Of a stretch of DNA of 48,702 nucleotides, positions 13,510-35,938 are shown in pieces (position 1 is the stretch's first letter; each line of letters opens with the position of its first letter). The translations under genes and the position numbers were made by a program. This DNA is from Rhodospirillales bacterium. GTDB taxonomy: Bacteria; Pseudomonadota; Alphaproteobacteria; BOG-932; Roseiterribacteraceae. The stretch is taken from contig JAQGIF010000103.1 of NCBI GenBank assembly GCA_028291345.1, forward strand, positions 1 to 48,702, in the 5' to 3' direction. The notes under the pieces are model-generated. The model was not told the DNA's origin. It did not search any database and worked only from the letters and a program-made list of their open reading frames with translations.

Positions 13510-13593
13510 CGCAAGCAAATATCTCCATCAAAAACCGGGCGCCGAATCGCATGAGACTGGCGAACGGTGGGGCAAGCGCCTATATCTATCAAT

Positions 13594-13610
13594 GTCAGGT
13601 CATGCCTGAC
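13594..13610. promoter_or_regulatory. dyad between thyX and ssrA
   Basis: GTCAGG (13594-13599) and CCTGAC (13605-13610) form a perfect 6-bp inverted repeat with 5-nt spacing, in the divergent gap between thyX and the tmRNA gene. It could be an operator or a short hairpin at the start of the acceptor-side transcript. Confidence 0.3.
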
Positions 13611-13620
13611 TATGGCGATA

Positions 13621-13885
13621 AACGCTTTTTGGAATAGACGTTGTGGACCCGGGGGCGGTACCCGGCGCCTCCACCATTCCCCGGCCGGCTTGCTGGTTGG
13701 GTTCTAAGGGGGCGAAACAGGCTCGACACGCGTAGTAAAGGGAAAGTTTTTGCTCGGCATGATACCGCCGTTATCGGGTCAAACACACTAGGTGCCAACG
13801 ATAACGTTGAAACCCTCGCCCTCGCTGCCTAAACAGCAGTGATAAGCGCGGTTCGGGGGGCACCGGGCAACAGAAGCCCCCCACT
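13621..13885 (+). ncRNA. ssrA: tmRNA, circularly permuted two-piece form
   Basis: Rescues stalled ribosomes and tags the nascent peptide. The acceptor piece comes first. Its T-arm is CCGGG/CCCGG (13649-13653, 13661-13665) with loop GGCGGTA, then CGCCTCC and ACCA ending at 13676. After a 31-nt intervening segment the coding piece starts at 13708 with GGGGGCG, which pairs perfectly with CGCCTCC and makes the G3-U70 pair that marks alanine tRNAs. The tag frame 13794-13832 encodes ANDNVETLALAA and stops with TAA; the Ala-Ala end suits ClpX. A GGGGGGC/GCCCCCC stem (13855-13882) lies near the 3' end. The outer ends are approximate. sspB follows immediately. Confidence 0.93.
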
Positions 13886-27821: not shown

Positions 27822-27851
27822 CCTGACGATTACGTTCCTGACGATTACGTT
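27822..27851. repeat. 15-bp perfect tandem repeat in the yqgE/prx gap
   Basis: CCTGACGATTACGTT occurs twice without a gap (27822-27836 and 27837-27851), 24 bp before the yqgE start and 160 bp before the peroxiredoxin start. It may be a paired binding site for a regulator acting on either gene, or simple slippage. Confidence 0.8.
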
Positions 27852-28014: not shown

Positions 28015-28491
28015 ATGATCAAGATCGGTGACAAGATACCGTCAGTGACGTTGAAACGGTTCGGCGCGAACGGCATGGAGGAAGTTTCCACCGATACGCT
28101 GTTCCTGGGCAAGGTCGTCCTCTTCTCTGTTCCAGGCGCCTTCACGCCGACCTGCTCGATGAAGCATCTGCCCGGTTTTATCGAAAAGGCCGATGCCTTC
28201 AAGGCCAAGGGTATCGATCGCGTGCTGTGCCTCGCGGTGAACGACGCCTTCGTCATGAAGGCCTGGGGCGAGCAGAATAAGGTCGACGGCAAGGTCGAGA
28301 TGCTGCCCGATGGCAATGGCGTCTTCACCAAGGCGCTGGGCCTAGAGATGGACGGCTCGGGCTTCGGCCTCGGCACGCGCGGACAGCGTTTCGCGCTCTA
28401 TGCGGTGGATGGCGTGGTCAAGGACCTGCAGGTTGAAAAGCCAGGCGCCTTCGAAGTCTCCAGTGCTGAATCCATGCTGGGCCGCGTCTGA
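28015..28491 (+). CDS. peroxiredoxin, Prx5-like
   Basis: A 158-residue thiol peroxidase that reduces hydrogen peroxide and organic peroxides. The active-site motif PGAFTPTCSMKHLPGF places the peroxidatic Cys at residue 47. A second Cys near 72 (RVLCLAVND) could act in resolution; many Prx5-type bacterial enzymes work with glutathione or glutaredoxin. The block FGLGTRGQRFALYAVDGVV is also typical. Start ATG 28015 is preceded by GGAG at good spacing. It is monocistronic, ending in a long hairpin terminator. Confidence 0.93.
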   Translation: MIKIGDKIPSVTLKRFGANGMEEVSTDTLFLGKVVLFSVPGAFTPTCSMKHLPGFIEKADAFKAKGIDRVLCLAVNDAFVMKAWGEQNKVDGKVEMLPDGNGVFTKALGLEMDGSGFGLGTRGQRFALYAVDGVVKDLQVEKPGAFEVSSAESMLGRV

Positions 28492-28561: not shown

Positions 28562-28587
28562 GGAACCTGAGCGGCCAAGCCGGGGTT
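28562..28587 (+). promoter_or_regulatory. EcfG-type promoter candidate before DUF1328 gene
   Basis: GGAAC (28562-28566), 17 bp, GGTT (28584-28587). It matches the EcfG consensus GGAAC-N16/17-CGTT except for the first base of the -10 box, and lies 84 bp before the DUF1328 start. Confidence 0.5.
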
Positions 28588-28670: not shown

Positions 28671-28853
28671 ATGCTTGGCTGGGCAATCACCTTTTTCATC
28701 ATCGCTATCATTGCAGCGGCGCTCGGTTTCGGCGGTATTGCCGGCAGCGCCGTCTCCATCGCGCAGATACTCTTCGTAATCTTCCTGATTTTGTTTCTAA
28801 TTTCGTTGGTCTGGCACCTTGTAGCGGGCCGTCGGCCGCCGCCCGTACTCTAG
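28671..28853 (+). CDS. small DUF1328 (YtjA-like) membrane protein
   Basis: A 60-residue protein made almost wholly of two transmembrane helices: [21 protein letters not shown], then [25 protein letters not shown]. It ends with a basic RRPPPVL tail. The GWAxxF...[11 protein letters not shown] wording identifies DUF1328. Such genes are often part of the alphaproteobacterial general stress regulon. AAGGAG precedes the ATG by a few bases, and an EcfG-like promoter lies upstream. The function is unknown. Confidence 0.88.
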
Positions 28854-28875
28854 TCAGATCCGGCAAAAAAATTTG

Positions 28876-28900
28876 GGAACCATTTCACGCGCGATTCGTT
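28876..28900 (+). promoter_or_regulatory. EcfG promoter, perfect consensus
   Basis: GGAAC (28876-28880), exactly 16 bp, CGTT (28897-28900). This is the full consensus for the alphaproteobacterial general stress sigma factor, whose gene lies 5 kb away. The start would be near 28908. No protein gene lies between it and the terminator at 28951. Confidence 0.78.
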
Positions 28901-28907
28901 CATAATT

Positions 28908-28988
28908 TGACAGGTAGTGACATCCCTCATCCTGTTAGGTCCTGACTTATAGCCTTCCGCCGCCTCGTGCGACGGGAGGCTTTTTTTC
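28908..28988 (+). ncRNA. candidate general-stress small RNA
   Basis: About 80 nt between a perfect EcfG promoter and a classical intrinsic terminator, with no likely gene inside. The predicted fold has a 5' hairpin ACAGG/CCTGT (28910-28914, 28931-28935) whose 16-nt loop holds CATCCCTCAT. That C-rich single strand could pair with purine-rich ribosome binding sites. A short linker and the 3' terminator hairpin follow. The general layout recalls GsrN, the sigma-T-controlled RNA of Caulobacter, but no sequence kinship can be claimed. An 11-codon GTG frame (28917-28952) has no ribosome binding site. Confidence 0.55.
28951..28987 (+). terminator. intrinsic terminator of the small RNA
   Basis: AGCCTTCCG (28951-28959) pairs with CGGGAGGCT (28973-28981), 9 bp with one G-U, followed by seven T counting the base-paired one (28981-28987). 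Confidence 0.85.
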
Positions 28989-29039: not shown

Positions 29040-29064
29040 GGAACATCTGATCACACCGCGGGTT
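29040..29064 (+). promoter_or_regulatory. EcfG-type promoter candidate before the lipoprotein gene
   Basis: GGAAC (29040-29044), exactly 16 bp, GGTT (29061-29064). One base differs from consensus. The transcript would start near 29071, about 24 nt before ATG 29095. Confidence 0.6.
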
Positions 29065-29094: not shown

Positions 29095-29304
29095 ATGTTA
29101 AAGAGCGCAACCCTCGTCATCTGTCTCGCCACCAGCATTGCGCTGGGCGGATGCGCCACCCACCAGGGTAACCGCATCCTGACCGACAGCGCGGTCGGCG
29201 CCGGTGGCGGCGCGCTCCTCGGCGCAGTGGCGGGCTTCAATCCGCTGGTCGGGGCTGCCGTTGGCGGCGCTGGCGGTGCTGCTGTGGGCGCGGCCACTCA
29301 CTAG
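29095..29304 (+). CDS. glycine-zipper lipoprotein
   Basis: A 69-residue lipoprotein. The lipobox ALGGC puts the lipidated Cys at residue 20. The mature part is a glycine-zipper helix (GAGGGALLGAVAGFNPLVGAAVGGAGGAAVG) like those of small stress or osmotically induced outer-membrane lipoproteins. A GGAG site precedes the ATG. It is monocistronic with an EcfG-like promoter, in keeping with envelope stress defence. Confidence 0.85.
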   Translation: MLKSATLVICLATSIALGGCATHQGNRILTDSAVGAGGGALLGAVAGFNPLVGAAVGGAGGAAVGAATH

Positions 29305-29554: not shown

Positions 29555-30598
29555 ATGTCATCTGGAAGTGCGCGGACTATTCGTTTCAGGCTGACGCTGG
29601 TCCTTTCCATTTTTTTACTGCCTGTCGTGGCTTACATGGTGCTGCTTGGCTGGTCCTATGCCAGTCAGCCATCCGCCACGCGCACTATATTGATGCTTGG
29701 TCCCATCGTTTTATGGCTGGCCGCGCTGGCGGTCGTGTGGTTCGCCGCGGATCTGCAAATCGCGCGCCCGCTTCGCCGTCTGACCCGCACCGCCGAAGCC
29801 TATTGCAAAGGCGATCTTTCCGCCGATCCGCCCTTGGCCGGACCTGGGGAATTGCGGAACCTTGGGGCCATGTTCAATGAAATGGCAGTCAGGATCGCCG
29901 GCCGCGAGACCGAACTGCGAGAGGCGATCGAGACGCGGGAGGCGATGATGCGCGAAATCCACCATCGCGTGAAAAACAATCTGCAGATCGTCACAAGCCT
30001 GCTGAATCTCCAGGCCAAGGCGGTTCAGGGGGAGAGCGCACAACGCGCATTCAACGACATTCAGACGCGGGTACGTGCCTTGGCGCTCGTGCATCGGTAT
30101 CTGTACGAAAGCGAGGATCTTCAATCGGTCAATCTGGGCGCCTTCCTGAAGGAACTGGCGGCAAGCCTGCAGCTGTCATACGGGATTTCACAGGACCAAG
30201 TTGCCATTGAGGTCGAAGCCGACACGGTATGGGATGTATCCGATCGCGCTGTGCCGCTAGCCTTGTTCATGACCGAAACCATGAGCAACGCGCTGAAACA
30301 CGCATTTCCCCAAGGCCGCCAGGGCGTCATTCGGATCGTGCTGAAATCGATGCCAAATTCCGTCGTCTGCTTCAGTGTCGAGGATAACGGCGTCGGCTTG
30401 ACCGAGGCGCAATCCATCGCTCAAGGGCCTCAGGCAAGCCTTGGGATGTCGCTGATCAAAGCCTTCGCGCGGCAGGTCGACGGTAAACTGACGATCAGCG
30501 GCCCTCCGGGGACGAGCGTCATGATCGAGTTCGTCAATAAATATCAGCCGCATGAAATTCCCAGCGATGCAGTTCGGAAGTACGCCTGGGCAGTCTAG
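29555..30598 (+). CDS. HisKA_2-type sensor histidine kinase
   Basis: A 347-residue inner-membrane kinase, probably an input to PhyR. It has two transmembrane helices (about 12-34 and 45-65) with almost no periplasmic loop, a HAMP-like linker (IARPLRRLTRTAEAYCKGDLS), and a HisKA_2 dimerisation domain with EIHHRVKNNLQ (phospho-acceptor His137, the one before Arg). The ATPase domain has MTETMSNALKHAFP, DNGVGLTEAQ and GMSLIKAFAR. Kinases of this class (PhyP, PhyT, PakF, PhyK) control the general stress response in alphaproteobacteria, some as net phosphatases. With no sensory domain outside the membrane, the signal may be in the membrane or come from a partner. Confidence 0.88.
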   Translation: MSSGSARTIRFRLTLVLSIFLLPVVAYMVLLGWSYASQPSATRTILMLGPIVLWLAALAVVWFAADLQIARPLRRLTRTAEAYCKGDLSADPPLAGPGELRNLGAMFNEMAVRIAGRETELREAIETREAMMREIHHRVKNNLQIVTSLLNLQAKAVQGESAQRAFNDIQTRVRALALVHRYLYESEDLQSVNLGAFLKELAASLQLSYGISQDQVAIEVEADTVWDVSDRAVPLALFMTETMSNALKHAFPQGRQGVIRIVLKSMPNSVVCFSVEDNGVGLTEAQSIAQGPQASLGMSLIKAFARQVDGKLTISGPPGTSVMIEFVNKYQPHEIPSDAVRKYAWAV

Positions 30599-31193: not shown

Positions 31194-31484
31194 TCATCGA
31201 TCGAACAGCCGGCCGATCAAAATCCCTGCACCGAACGCGATTAGTATGCTGGCGAGCGGCCGCTCTTCGATACGGTCGGTCAAATCGTCCAGCATTTCAC
31301 GGCTCTGCACCTTCGCATCGTCGGTCAGGCGGTCGATTCCGCCGCGGAGGGAGTCGATCCGTTCGTGAACGGTTTCGGAGGTCAACTCTTTGAGAGCATT
31401 GCTGAGATTCGCAATATCGCTCCGCAATTTTGCCAGATCGTCTTTTACGGCGCCGAAGTCGCCCTCTACATCGTGTGACGTCAT
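31194..31484 (-). CDS. DUF883 (ElaB/YqjD-like) membrane-anchored protein
   Basis: A 96-residue protein: a long charged amphipathic helix (about 10-75, DDLAKLRSDIANLSNALKEL), then a single C-terminal membrane anchor ending GAGILIGRLFDR, the hallmark of DUF883. Enterobacterial relatives (YqjD, ElaB) are stationary-phase membrane proteins that bind ribosomes. That role here is inference. AAGGAAC precedes the ATG. A GGAAC-N16-GGTT element lies about 200 bp upstream on the same strand. Confidence 0.85.
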   Translation of the reverse strand: MTSHDVEGDFGAVKDDLAKLRSDIANLSNALKELTSETVHERIDSLRGGIDRLTDDAKVQSREMLDDLTDRIEERPLASILIAFGAGILIGRLFDR

Positions 31485-31908
31485 TGCAAGGTTCCTTATC
31501 AGAAGGGTCGAAGCATACTACGCGTAAATCCTGTGGACACAATTCCCTCCAAGCTCGCACTGGACTTGTCGGGCACAACGATTTTCTCGCATAGTAAGTA
31601 CATTCGAGGCCGTGTTGGGAGCTTGGGAAGGCGATGGAAATGCCGCATAATCATCAGCGCCAACGATTTCCATTTGACTTTGTTTCCAACCCCGGCGTCC
31701 GATGATGGTTCCGCCCGTCGCGCATGGTGGCGGAATTTCGGTCGGCATGATGGACACATTTTCCGTTGTGGCGTGTTCAGGCTATGTCGAAGCGGAATTC
31801 ATCGTCGTACGGACTGCGCAGGTCCCCCGGTCAAAGGGACGCTTCTCGACATTGGTCGGGCCGGTATAGGCCGGGCGCATTTCGGTATACGGGTAATGCG
31901 GAGGGATC
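31485..31908. other. gene-free divergent region between DUF883 gene and nepR
   Basis: No gene with proper features is seen; the open frames here lack ribosome binding sites and family similarity. It should hold the promoters of both neighbours. One EcfG-like element for the minus strand is found at 31688-31712; none is seen for nepR. Confidence 0.5.
31688..31712 (-). promoter_or_regulatory. EcfG-type promoter candidate facing the DUF883 gene
   Basis: On the minus strand GGAAC (31712-31708), exactly 16 bp, GGTT (31691-31688). The leader to the DUF883 gene would be about 195 nt, which is long; a small transcript in between is possible. Confidence 0.42.
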
Positions 31909-32091
31909 GTGGCGGACAAACAAAAACTGGGACGAAAGGAACCCCGCGGCCAGAAGAAACTCAGCGACGGAGCGGTCGCTGGATTCGATAGCTGGCTCGA
32001 AAACAAGTTGCGAACTGCCTACAGTTCCGTATTGGATGAACCGATCCCCGAAGACCTTATTCAGTTGCTGTCGCAAAAACTGAAGGACTGA
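31909..32091 (+). CDS. nepR: NepR, anti-sigma factor of the general stress response
   Basis: A 60-residue protein that in the family binds and silences EcfG until phosphorylated PhyR takes it away. The core two-helix region SWLENKLRTAYSSVLDEPIPEDLIQLLSQKL matches NepR, including the conserved LR..Y..V..EPIP..L. It starts with GTG 31909 after a strong GGAGGG. Unlike the common nepR-ecfG operon divergent from phyR, this nepR stands alone and is convergent with phyR. Confidence 0.92.
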   Translation: MADKQKLGRKEPRGQKKLSDGAVAGFDSWLENKLRTAYSSVLDEPIPEDLIQLLSQKLKD

Positions 32092-32158: not shown

Positions 32159-32950
32159 TCACCCCGTTTTGGCTTGCTGCACGGAAAATGACAGGGCCTG
32201 CACGATCGCAACCTTCAATGTCTCAGGATCGAACGGTTTGGTGACGATAAAGGCCGGCTCAACGCGATCGCCGGTTAAGAGCCGCTCCGGAAAGCCGGTA
32301 ACAAAAATCACCGGAGCATCCATCGAGCGCATAATTTCCTGAACTGTCACGATGCCGCTATCGCCATCCTGCAGCTGAACGTCGGCCAGAACCAGGCCGG
32401 GCCGATGCTTGCGGGCCAATTCCACCGCTTCGGCCTGCCGGCCGGCCACACCGACCACCTCGTGGCCCAATGATTCCACAATGCCTGCGATGTCCATCGC
32501 GATCACCGGCTCATCCTCGATGATCAAGACACGTGTCGTCGCCTGGCGACGCAATTCCTGTCGCGCGACGTCCAGTTTCCTGACGACGTCGGCCTCCTCA
32601 AGATCCAGTATCCTGGCCGCCTCTGCCGTGGAGAAGCGCTCGAGCGCGATCAGCAACAGAACCTGGCGCTCGATCGACGGCAAGGCCGCCAATTGGCGGT
32701 TGAGGCCGCCATCTTCGGCAGTGCCTTCAACCGCCGGAATGGCGCTATCGACGATGTCCCAGGCGTCGTGGAACACGGCGAAGAGCTCTACACGCAGGTC
32801 GGCGGCGTTCTTGATCCGCTCGGGCTCGGCTAGGATCGCCTCGAGACACAACCGCACATACTCGTCGCCCGTCGCCTGCGCTCCGGTCAGAGCCCGCGCA
32901 TAGCGACGAAGGTAGGGCAGAAGGCGGACAATATCGTGGGAGACGCTCAT
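32159..32950 (-). CDS. phyR: PhyR, anti-anti-sigma response regulator
   Basis: Master switch of the general stress response. The 263-residue protein has an N-terminal EcfG-like sigma mimic domain (about 1-135: LLPYLRRYARALTG, LAALPSIERQVLLLIALERFSTAEAARIL) and a C-terminal receiver domain. The receiver keeps the acidic pocket (IIEDEP), phospho-acceptor Asp190 (LVLADVQL), Thr218 and Lys238 (VTKPF). When phosphorylated it binds NepR and frees EcfG. ATG 32950 is preferred over GTG 32956 because GAGG is then properly spaced. It lies downstream of ecfG on the same strand, 188 bp apart. Confidence 0.95.
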   Translation of the reverse strand: MSVSHDIVRLLPYLRRYARALTGAQATGDEYVRLCLEAILAEPERIKNAADLRVELFAVFHDAWDIVDSAIPAVEGTAEDGGLNRQLAALPSIERQVLLLIALERFSTAEAARILDLEEADVVRKLDVARQELRRQATTRVLIIEDEPVIAMDIAGIVESLGHEVVGVAGRQAEAVELARKHRPGLVLADVQLQDGDSGIVTVQEIMRSMDAPVIFVTGFPERLLTGDRVEPAFIVTKPFDPETLKVAIVQALSFSVQQAKTG

Positions 32951-33138
32951 AAACACGACCTCATTTCATTCTTCGGCGGCGCTGCGGCGCCTGCTTCGTT
33001 GCTCATCAAATTCGGCCTGCCGTGACGGTCAGGAAACCGTAATCGCGTTCTACTCAAAATGACTATCGCAGCAATATGGCATAAACCCGACAGCGATGCT
33101 TAAGGTCCATGCCGAAACGCACGTTCTAGAGATGGAAA

Positions 33139-33765
33139 TCAGATCGCGCGAGGCAAGGGATTTGTTCCGCTTGGGTTTGGACCATCCCGCCGCCCCTCCC
33201 CAGCCAGCCCGCGCGATTTGGCGAGAACCTTTTTCAATTCACCGCGCGCCCGGTTCAACCGGGATTTGATCGTGCCGACCGCGCAGCCGCAAACTTCGGC
33301 CGCCTCTTCGTAGCTGAGACCCGCGGCGGAGACCAGCACGAGGATTTCGCGATGTTCGACCGACATGCGCTGAAGCGCATTCGCAACCTCGTTGACCTCG
33401 ACCACGTGTTCCTGATTGGGCGCGCTGGGCAGGGCGCCCTCCGGGATATCGCCGATAGTTTCGACCTCGATCCGCGTTCGCCGCAACCCGTTAATGTAAT
33501 GGTTGCGCAGGATGGTCATCAGCCAGGCCTTAAGATAGGTGCCGGGCTGAAATTGCGCCTCGGCCGACAAGGCCTTCAGCACGGTATCGTTGACCAGATC
33601 GTCCGCGCGATCGCGGTGCCCCGTCAGCGCACGCGCCACGGCCCGCAGATGCGGCAGATGGGAAACCAGCTCCTGGCGAAAATCGCTTCCCGCGTTGGTG
33701 CTCGGCTTAGCGGGCTGGTCAAACCGCCCATCGTAGCGTGGACCCTTTGCGTGGGCTTCCGTCAT
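33139..33765 (-). CDS. ecfG: EcfG, general stress response sigma factor
   Basis: ECF sigma factor directing RNA polymerase to GGAAC-N16/17-CGTT promoters. Sigma region 2 (about 30-95) has HLPHLRAVARALTGHRDRADDLVNDTVLKAL and the EcfG-typical QPGTYLKAWLMTILRN. Region 4 (about 125-180) has RMSVEHREILVLVSAAGLSYEEAAEVCGCAVGTIKSRLNRAR with its helix-turn-helix. From ATG 33765 it has 208 residues. The open frame extends 52 codons upstream through the likely promoter region, so that longer start is rejected. Two GGAAC elements lie upstream, suggesting autoregulation. Confidence 0.94.
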   Translation of the reverse strand: MTEAHAKGPRYDGRFDQPAKPSTNAGSDFRQELVSHLPHLRAVARALTGHRDRADDLVNDTVLKALSAEAQFQPGTYLKAWLMTILRNHYINGLRRTRIEVETIGDIPEGALPSAPNQEHVVEVNEVANALQRMSVEHREILVLVSAAGLSYEEAAEVCGCAVGTIKSRLNRARGELKKVLAKSRGLAGEGRRDGPNPSGTNPLPRAI

Positions 33766-33814
33766 ATTTGTACTTCGCGCACTCGATCGGACAAGTGGAT
33801 TGAATGGATAGGGA

Positions 33815-33840
33815 AAGCTCTGTCGCTCATATATCGTTCC
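33815..33840 (-). promoter_or_regulatory. GGAAC element upstream of ecfG, proximal
   Basis: On the minus strand GGAAC (33840-33836), 17 bp, GCTT (33818-33815). The -10 half deviates from CGTT. A start near 33807 would leave a 42-nt leader to ATG 33765. Confidence 0.4.
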
Positions 33841-33869
33841 AGTCACATGGGCTGTGGCGCGTAAAATAG

Positions 33870-33895
33870 AAGCCTCCCCCGTTACACGGGGTTCC
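33870..33895 (-). promoter_or_regulatory. GGAAC element upstream of ecfG, distal
   Basis: On the minus strand GGAAC (33895-33891), 17 bp, GCTT (33873-33870). Same spacing and same deviant -10 half as the proximal element 55 bp away. Confidence 0.35.
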
Positions 33896-33926
33896 AACAT
33901 TCCAATGTTTCGGCTACGCAAATGCC

Positions 33927-35506: not shown

Positions 35507-35924
<418 letters not shown>

Positions 35925-35938
35925 TTTATCCCAGCCCT

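Follow-up and report, generated by a model that had tools for sequence, protein, structure and literature searches.

Introduction

Alphaproteobacteria possess small RNAs of the AbcR, MmgR and NfeR1 kind, which present C-rich loops and anti-Shine-Dalgarno sequences.

In Caulobacter crescentus the general stress response includes a small RNA of its own, GsrN (CCNA_R0081), a transcript of about 106 nt made from an EcfG/SigT promoter (PMC5869019). The unpaired C-rich 5′ loop of GsrN pairs with the katG leader, as has been experimentally proven; the RNA is processed to a stable 5′ isoform of 51–54 nt, and many of its listed target sites are rich in GGGGG (PMC5869019). BLASTn matches to GsrN are limited to Caulobacteraceae, and outside C. 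crescentus its homologues usually lie near ecfG, nepR and phyR (PMC5869019). GsrN-like RNAs have also been predicted in Rhizobiaceae and relatives (R. etli, S. meliloti and B. abortus; PMC5869019 Fig. 9). In the literature that we searched GsrN is the experimentally studied EcfG-driven small RNA, and the equivalents in other lineages have been assigned mainly by position.

We analysed a window of 48,702 nt (contig JAQGIF010000103.1, assembly GCA_028291345.1, Rhodospirillales bacterium; genome label G000), for which a preliminary description had proposed an EcfG-type promoter followed by a terminated small RNA of approximately 80 nt and GsrN-like build within a general stress response island. 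The sequence supports this proposal, and the RNA represents a new small-RNA family of a kind already known from related bacteria. The host is a member of a little-known group of soil bacteria, the Roseiterribacter lineage (Rhodospirillales at NCBI). It had been taken for a sphingomonad, which is wrong because the window's order includes Roseiterribacter gracilis TMPK1 (NCBI order Rhodospirillales) and the remaining relatives' genomes are Rhodospirillales or unclassified alphaproteobacterial MAGs. The comparison set consisted of five genomes of the window's order, from two genera, and one MAG of another order (G048); the cultured species R. gracilis TMPK1 is G003, and the order is represented by few genomes (n = 5).

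Structure of the predicted RNA gene

The GGAAC-N16-CGTT promoter claimed upstream of the RNA was confirmed as an exact sequence match (Table 1). Within the window the looser pattern GGAAC-N15..18-CGTT occurs three times against 1.6 expected from shuffles, and the match by itself is therefore not significant. Directly 5′ of the promoter, at 28864–28875, an A-run followed by TTT is found in G000 and G001 and is possibly an UP-like element.

The RNA, taken as 83 nt, has a predicted fold of −30.7 kcal/mol with a z-score of −3.6 against shuffles, and across the six sequences the folding z-scores range from −3.6 to −5.9. The 5′ stem-loop put forward in the preliminary description appears in all six predicted folds, but the C-rich loop assigned to it, CATCCCTCAT, is half base-paired: because UCAU (28927–28930) pairs with GUGA (28917–28920), the exposed part is shorter than claimed and consists of the apical tip CAUCCC (28921–28926). 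The 9-bp hairpin and T-run said to end the transcript are present, with a stem at 28951–28981 that contains 9 bp plus three inner pairs and seven T at 28981–28987. Sequence and terminator pairing together mark the predicted transcript as a short non-coding unit with an intrinsic terminator. No Rfam family matched the small RNA region at the gathering threshold, and under a relaxed threshold the best match over the RNA was ErsA, with 14 bits of the 50 needed. Elsewhere in the window are a class A RNase P RNA (35509–35926) and a permuted, two-piece alphaproteobacterial tmRNA (13554–13885).

Table 1. Features of the small RNA locus and its surroundings, in window coordinates.
Feature	Position	Strand	Basis or remark
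Peroxiredoxin gene	28018-28491		Pfam
EcfG-type promoter of DUF1328 gene, GGAAC-N17-GGTT	28562..28587	+	Counterpart in 5/5 genomes of the order
DUF1328 small membrane protein gene	28671..28853	+	PF07043, E 6e-15
EcfG-type promoter of small RNA, GGAAC-N16-CGTT	28876..28900	+	Exact match; GGAAC-CATTTCACGCGCGATT-CGTT
Small RNA gene, predicted transcript ~81 nt	28907..28987	+	Start +/-2 nt, inferred from -10 element
5′ stem-loop, 7-8-bp lower stem, apical loop CAUCCC	28907..28938	+	Same predicted fold in six sequences
38-nt core TGACAGGTAGTGACATCCCTCATCCTGTTAGGTCCTGA	28908..28945	+	Invariant in five genomes (two genera)
Linker UAGGUCCUGA between hairpin and terminator	28936..28945	+	Identical in five genomes
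Rho-independent terminator with seven U	28951..28987	+	Stem kept in all six
EcfG-type promoter of lipoprotein gene, GGAAC-N16-GGTT	29040..29064	+	3′ of small RNA in 6/6 loci
Gly-zipper (YMGG-like) lipoprotein gene	29095..29304	+	PF13441
HWE/HisKA_2 sensor histidine kinase gene	29555..30598	+	PF07568, PF07536
nepR (anti-sigma factor)	31909..32091	+	PF18557
phyR (anti-anti-sigma response regulator)	32159..32956	-	PF22029, PF22233, PF00072
ecfG (general stress sigma factor)	33139..33921	-	PF04542, PF08281

The predicted RNA shares with GsrN an EcfG/SigT-type promoter, a free-standing short terminated form, a putative C-rich single-stranded region near the 5′ end and a place at the general stress response locus. 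It differs in length (about 81 against about 106 nt) and in its tip, where the predicted hairpin is small and exposes a CAUCCC that is shorter and less C-rich than the longer C-run in the GsrN loop; control, place and design are common to the two, whereas kinship in sequence would be conjectural. The GsrN-like RNAs of the Rhizobiaceae type were assigned by the same marks, an EcfG promoter and a place at the general stress response locus, but belong to a different lineage, and the present RNA falls outside the Rfam families. With AbcR, MmgR and NfeR1 it has in common an exposed pyrimidine-rich motif complementary to ribosome-binding sites, a U-rich terminator and a genome that encodes Hfq; the motif and the control are different, and no homology was seen (no Rfam match).

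Conservation across two genera and a second order

Every one of the five genomes from the window's order carries the RNA, as does one genome of another order (G048). In R. gracilis TMPK1 the core is located at about 2,035,551–2,035,588 of BOPV01000001.1, and the expected RNA measures about 76 nt. Not a single base of the core differs among the five genomes, which span two genera, whereas the third codon positions of the DUF1328 gene and phyR are only 46–49% identical between the same genera and codons for identical residues agree at 46%; at such rates an identical 38-mer has a chance of about 3e-13. A perfect GGAAC-N16-(C/T)GTT ends 7–8 nt before the RNA core in each of the six homologous loci, in which the 16-nt promoter spacers average only 32% identity, and the EcfG-class sequence GGAAC-N16/17-(C/G/T)GTT stands immediately 5′ of the RNA in every locus, the window's included. 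A promoter at fixed spacing and an identical core, set against diverged spacers and third positions, therefore give a signal that exceeds chance.

A hairpin with the six-base CAUCCC tip and a strong terminator are predicted in 6/6 loci. In the G048 RNA the loop region is enlarged by insertions and a stem G-U is replaced by G-C with the pair preserved; this RNA also shares the AGGUCCU of the linker. As the 5′ hairpin is otherwise invariant, it gives almost no covariation evidence. Among the three terminators from the same genus, three pairs are changed on both sides, against none or one when the partners are slid, and 97% of terminator cells are paired compared with 38–54% for slid partners; with only three sequences the two-sided changes are not significantly above shuffles. 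The terminators of the other three loci are dissimilar in sequence and still form strong stems with U-tracts. Promoter, loop and terminator, whose conservation in relatives had been named as the decisive check, are all kept in the six loci. Since it has been retained letter for letter across genera, the RNA gene of about 80 nt very probably specifies a genuine regulatory RNA.

Reach of the family

A covariance search in relatives, advocated in the preliminary description, recovered homologues in six genomes. In 385 alphaproteobacterial genomes the covariance model (R2) matched the six loci and two further sequences, in G038 (L018) and G148 (L019), which we rejected as chance matches as they carry neither a GGAAC promoter nor a U-run terminator in the flanks read; the 379 genomes other than the six thus gave chance matches only. 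A pattern scan of genome contigs returned five family contigs, from four related genomes and the other-order MAG, and matches in Neglectibacter and in a Verrucomicrobiia MAG that were dismissed as chance, being inside coding sequence. When the same 385 genomes were screened for two EcfG promoters in tandem, spaced as in the family, four known members and five matches that lack the core came up, and hence no diverged equivalent recognisable by its core. The plasmids searched held no match to the small RNA. Because neither the R2 nor the tandem-promoter search found members beyond the six, the family is, judged from these sequences, narrow yet tightly kept.

Genomic context

The small RNA lies 3–5 kb from nepR-phyR-ecfG in G000, G001, G003 and G004; the G002 contig stops before these genes. 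ecfG adjoins phyR and nepR in related genomes, and the island of R. gracilis TMPK1 likewise holds all three. In the window two unnamed small genes separate the HWE/HisKA_2 kinase gene from nepR. The DUF1328 gene is the upstream neighbour of the small RNA in 5/5 genomes of the order, which also keep the triple of EcfG promoters (DUF1328, small RNA and lipoprotein, at 28562, 28876 and 29040). A similar lipoprotein open frame follows the RNA in G001, G003 and G004, and no such frame was recognised 3′ of the RNA in G002. In G048 an EcfG promoter comes 3′ of the RNA, and after it a Gly-zipper lipoprotein gene begins (translated by eye) that is truncated by the contig end; on its upstream side the RNA adjoins a divergent DUF1345 gene, not DUF1328. 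The order DUF1328, small RNA, EcfG promoter and Gly-zipper lipoprotein thus recurs near nepR-phyR-ecfG, and the 3′ half of this arrangement is also seen outside the window's order. Two minus-strand matches to the EcfG-type promoter were also observed, one at 31712 upstream of a reading frame at 31194–31484 (no Pfam match) with a counterpart in G001, and another at 27838.

Alternative explanations

That a chance promoter happens to precede a chance hairpin, with nothing functional there, has in its favour only that the promoter pattern by itself is about as frequent in the window as expected; the conserved promoter, the core, the terminator pairing and the codon-position comparison all refute it, and we regard its probability as practically negligible. 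The core could instead be a tiny leaderless gene of 12 codons (NTG-ACA-GGT-AGT-GAC-ATC-CCT-CAT-CCT-GTT-AGG-TCC-TGA) and not a regulatory RNA. In its favour, the block that is identical throughout the five genomes of the order starts with the second base of the NTG (TTG, CTG, ATG, GTG and GTG) and stops precisely at the TGA. This reading would, however, have to accommodate zero synonymous changes in 12 codons where identical-residue codons of neighbouring genes agree at 46%; the chance that all 11 sense codons after the start stay identical is about 2e-4. CTG is moreover a poor start, and in G048, which retains hairpin and tip, a TGA closes the frame after only four codons; all this makes a leaderless gene very improbable.

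A role in cis, either as leader or attenuator of the Gly-zipper lipoprotein gene or as a terminator-bearing 3′ UTR of DUF1328 transcripts, would agree with the constant place of the RNA immediately 5′ of the lipoprotein promoter, which the genome of another order shares, and with DUF1328 transcripts that could read into it, no terminator having been found between the two. Yet in 6/6 loci a separate EcfG promoter 3′ of the terminator serves the lipoprotein gene, the RNA has a promoter of its own, in G048 the upstream gene is not DUF1328, and a conserved tip combined with a variable terminator is unlike an attenuator switch, so that we hold a cis-acting element to be quite improbable. Promoter type, proximity to ecfG-nepR-phyR, similar size and a C-rich-tipped 5′ hairpin with terminator would all suit a true orthologue of Caulobacter GsrN that has diverged in sequence (compare PMC5869019). 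Orthology is nevertheless rather unlikely, considering that GsrN has BLASTn matches only in Caulobacteraceae (PMC5869019), that the model of the present RNA gave only chance matches in 379 other alphaproteobacterial genomes and that a CAUCCC tip would not match GGGGG-rich GsrN target sites. The explanation that we favour, with considerable confidence, is a small RNA that acts in trans from its own transcription unit as part of the general stress response.

Proposed function and candidate targets

Control of such a trans-acting RNA by EcfG is strongly supported by the promoters compared here, and pairing with mRNAs is likely. By analogy with GsrN, it would most likely act through Hfq-assisted pairing at ribosome-binding sites. 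Under stress EcfG would be freed from NepR via PhyR, and EcfG-RNA polymerase would start at about 28907 and stop at the intrinsic terminator near 28987. Hfq, which is encoded in 5/5 genomes of the window's order and gave no match in the 85% complete G048 genome, would probably bind the U-rich 3′ end. The CAUCCC tip, and perhaps the linker GGUCCU, would then be offered to purine-rich ribosome-binding and start-codon regions of targets, and pairing would mostly block translation. Tip and linker both appear complementary to purine-rich ribosome-binding sequences, and the linker, whose complement contains AGGA, may possibly be a second pairing site. As the 38-nt core is frozen, the pairing site can be tested directly. 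The RNA would add an independent and strongly conserved example from a lineage of which one species, R. gracilis TMPK1, is in culture, and it lends support to the idea that a small RNA dedicated to the stress sigma factor is a recurrent device in alphaproteobacteria.

Targets are only suggested. The preliminary description had anticipated GAGGGATG-like sites at start codons, but these proved rare and not conserved across genera, and for this reason we name no firm targets. The 13-mer GATGAGGGATGTC, with at most one mismatch, has 28 matches outside the small RNA loci compared with two for the reversed pattern; most near-perfect tip complements lie within coding frames or in antisense orientation. 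The 9-mer GAGGGATGT matched 12 times in G000 and five times in G003, and apart from the small RNA locus itself no shared gene was recognised between the two sets. In G004 the full 13-base complement covers the start codon of two unrelated genes (C86 and C78), which encode a beta-helix/DUF4214 protein and a PAS-domain-like protein, respectively; the G003 orthologue of C86 keeps at least 10 of the 13 bases in the same place, and a gene of G001 (C161) has 12 of the 13 overlapping its start codon. The beta-helix/DUF4214 gene was rejected as a cross-genus target, its start-codon site being present in G003 and G004 and absent in the related genes of G000 and G001, and no target site conserved in both genera was found. 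Right-handed beta-helix/DUF4214 loci were noted in G004 (L041, C86) and G003 (L081), and related beta-helix or DUF4214 stretches occur at about two dozen loci of R. gracilis.

Within the island, the nepR start region of G000, GGAGGGATC-GTG (31895–31911), is complementary to the tip, and GGAGGGAUC just 5′ of the GTG start forms a predicted duplex of −17.2 kcal/mol with the small RNA, against a background of −9.6 ± 2.8 kcal/mol over 130 starts; this duplex was picked from seven island genes looked at. The site is similar or partial in G001 and absent in G003 and G004, and with seven island genes examined nepR can be put forward only as a hypothetical target. One may conceive of a separate family of general stress small RNAs in which a single tip has to pair simultaneously with numerous start-codon regions, a constraint that would keep the 38-nt 5′ domain frozen, and whose targets might include nepR in the window's genus; this combination we consider unlikely. 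If it were true, targeting of nepR in that genus would provide positive feedback on EcfG.
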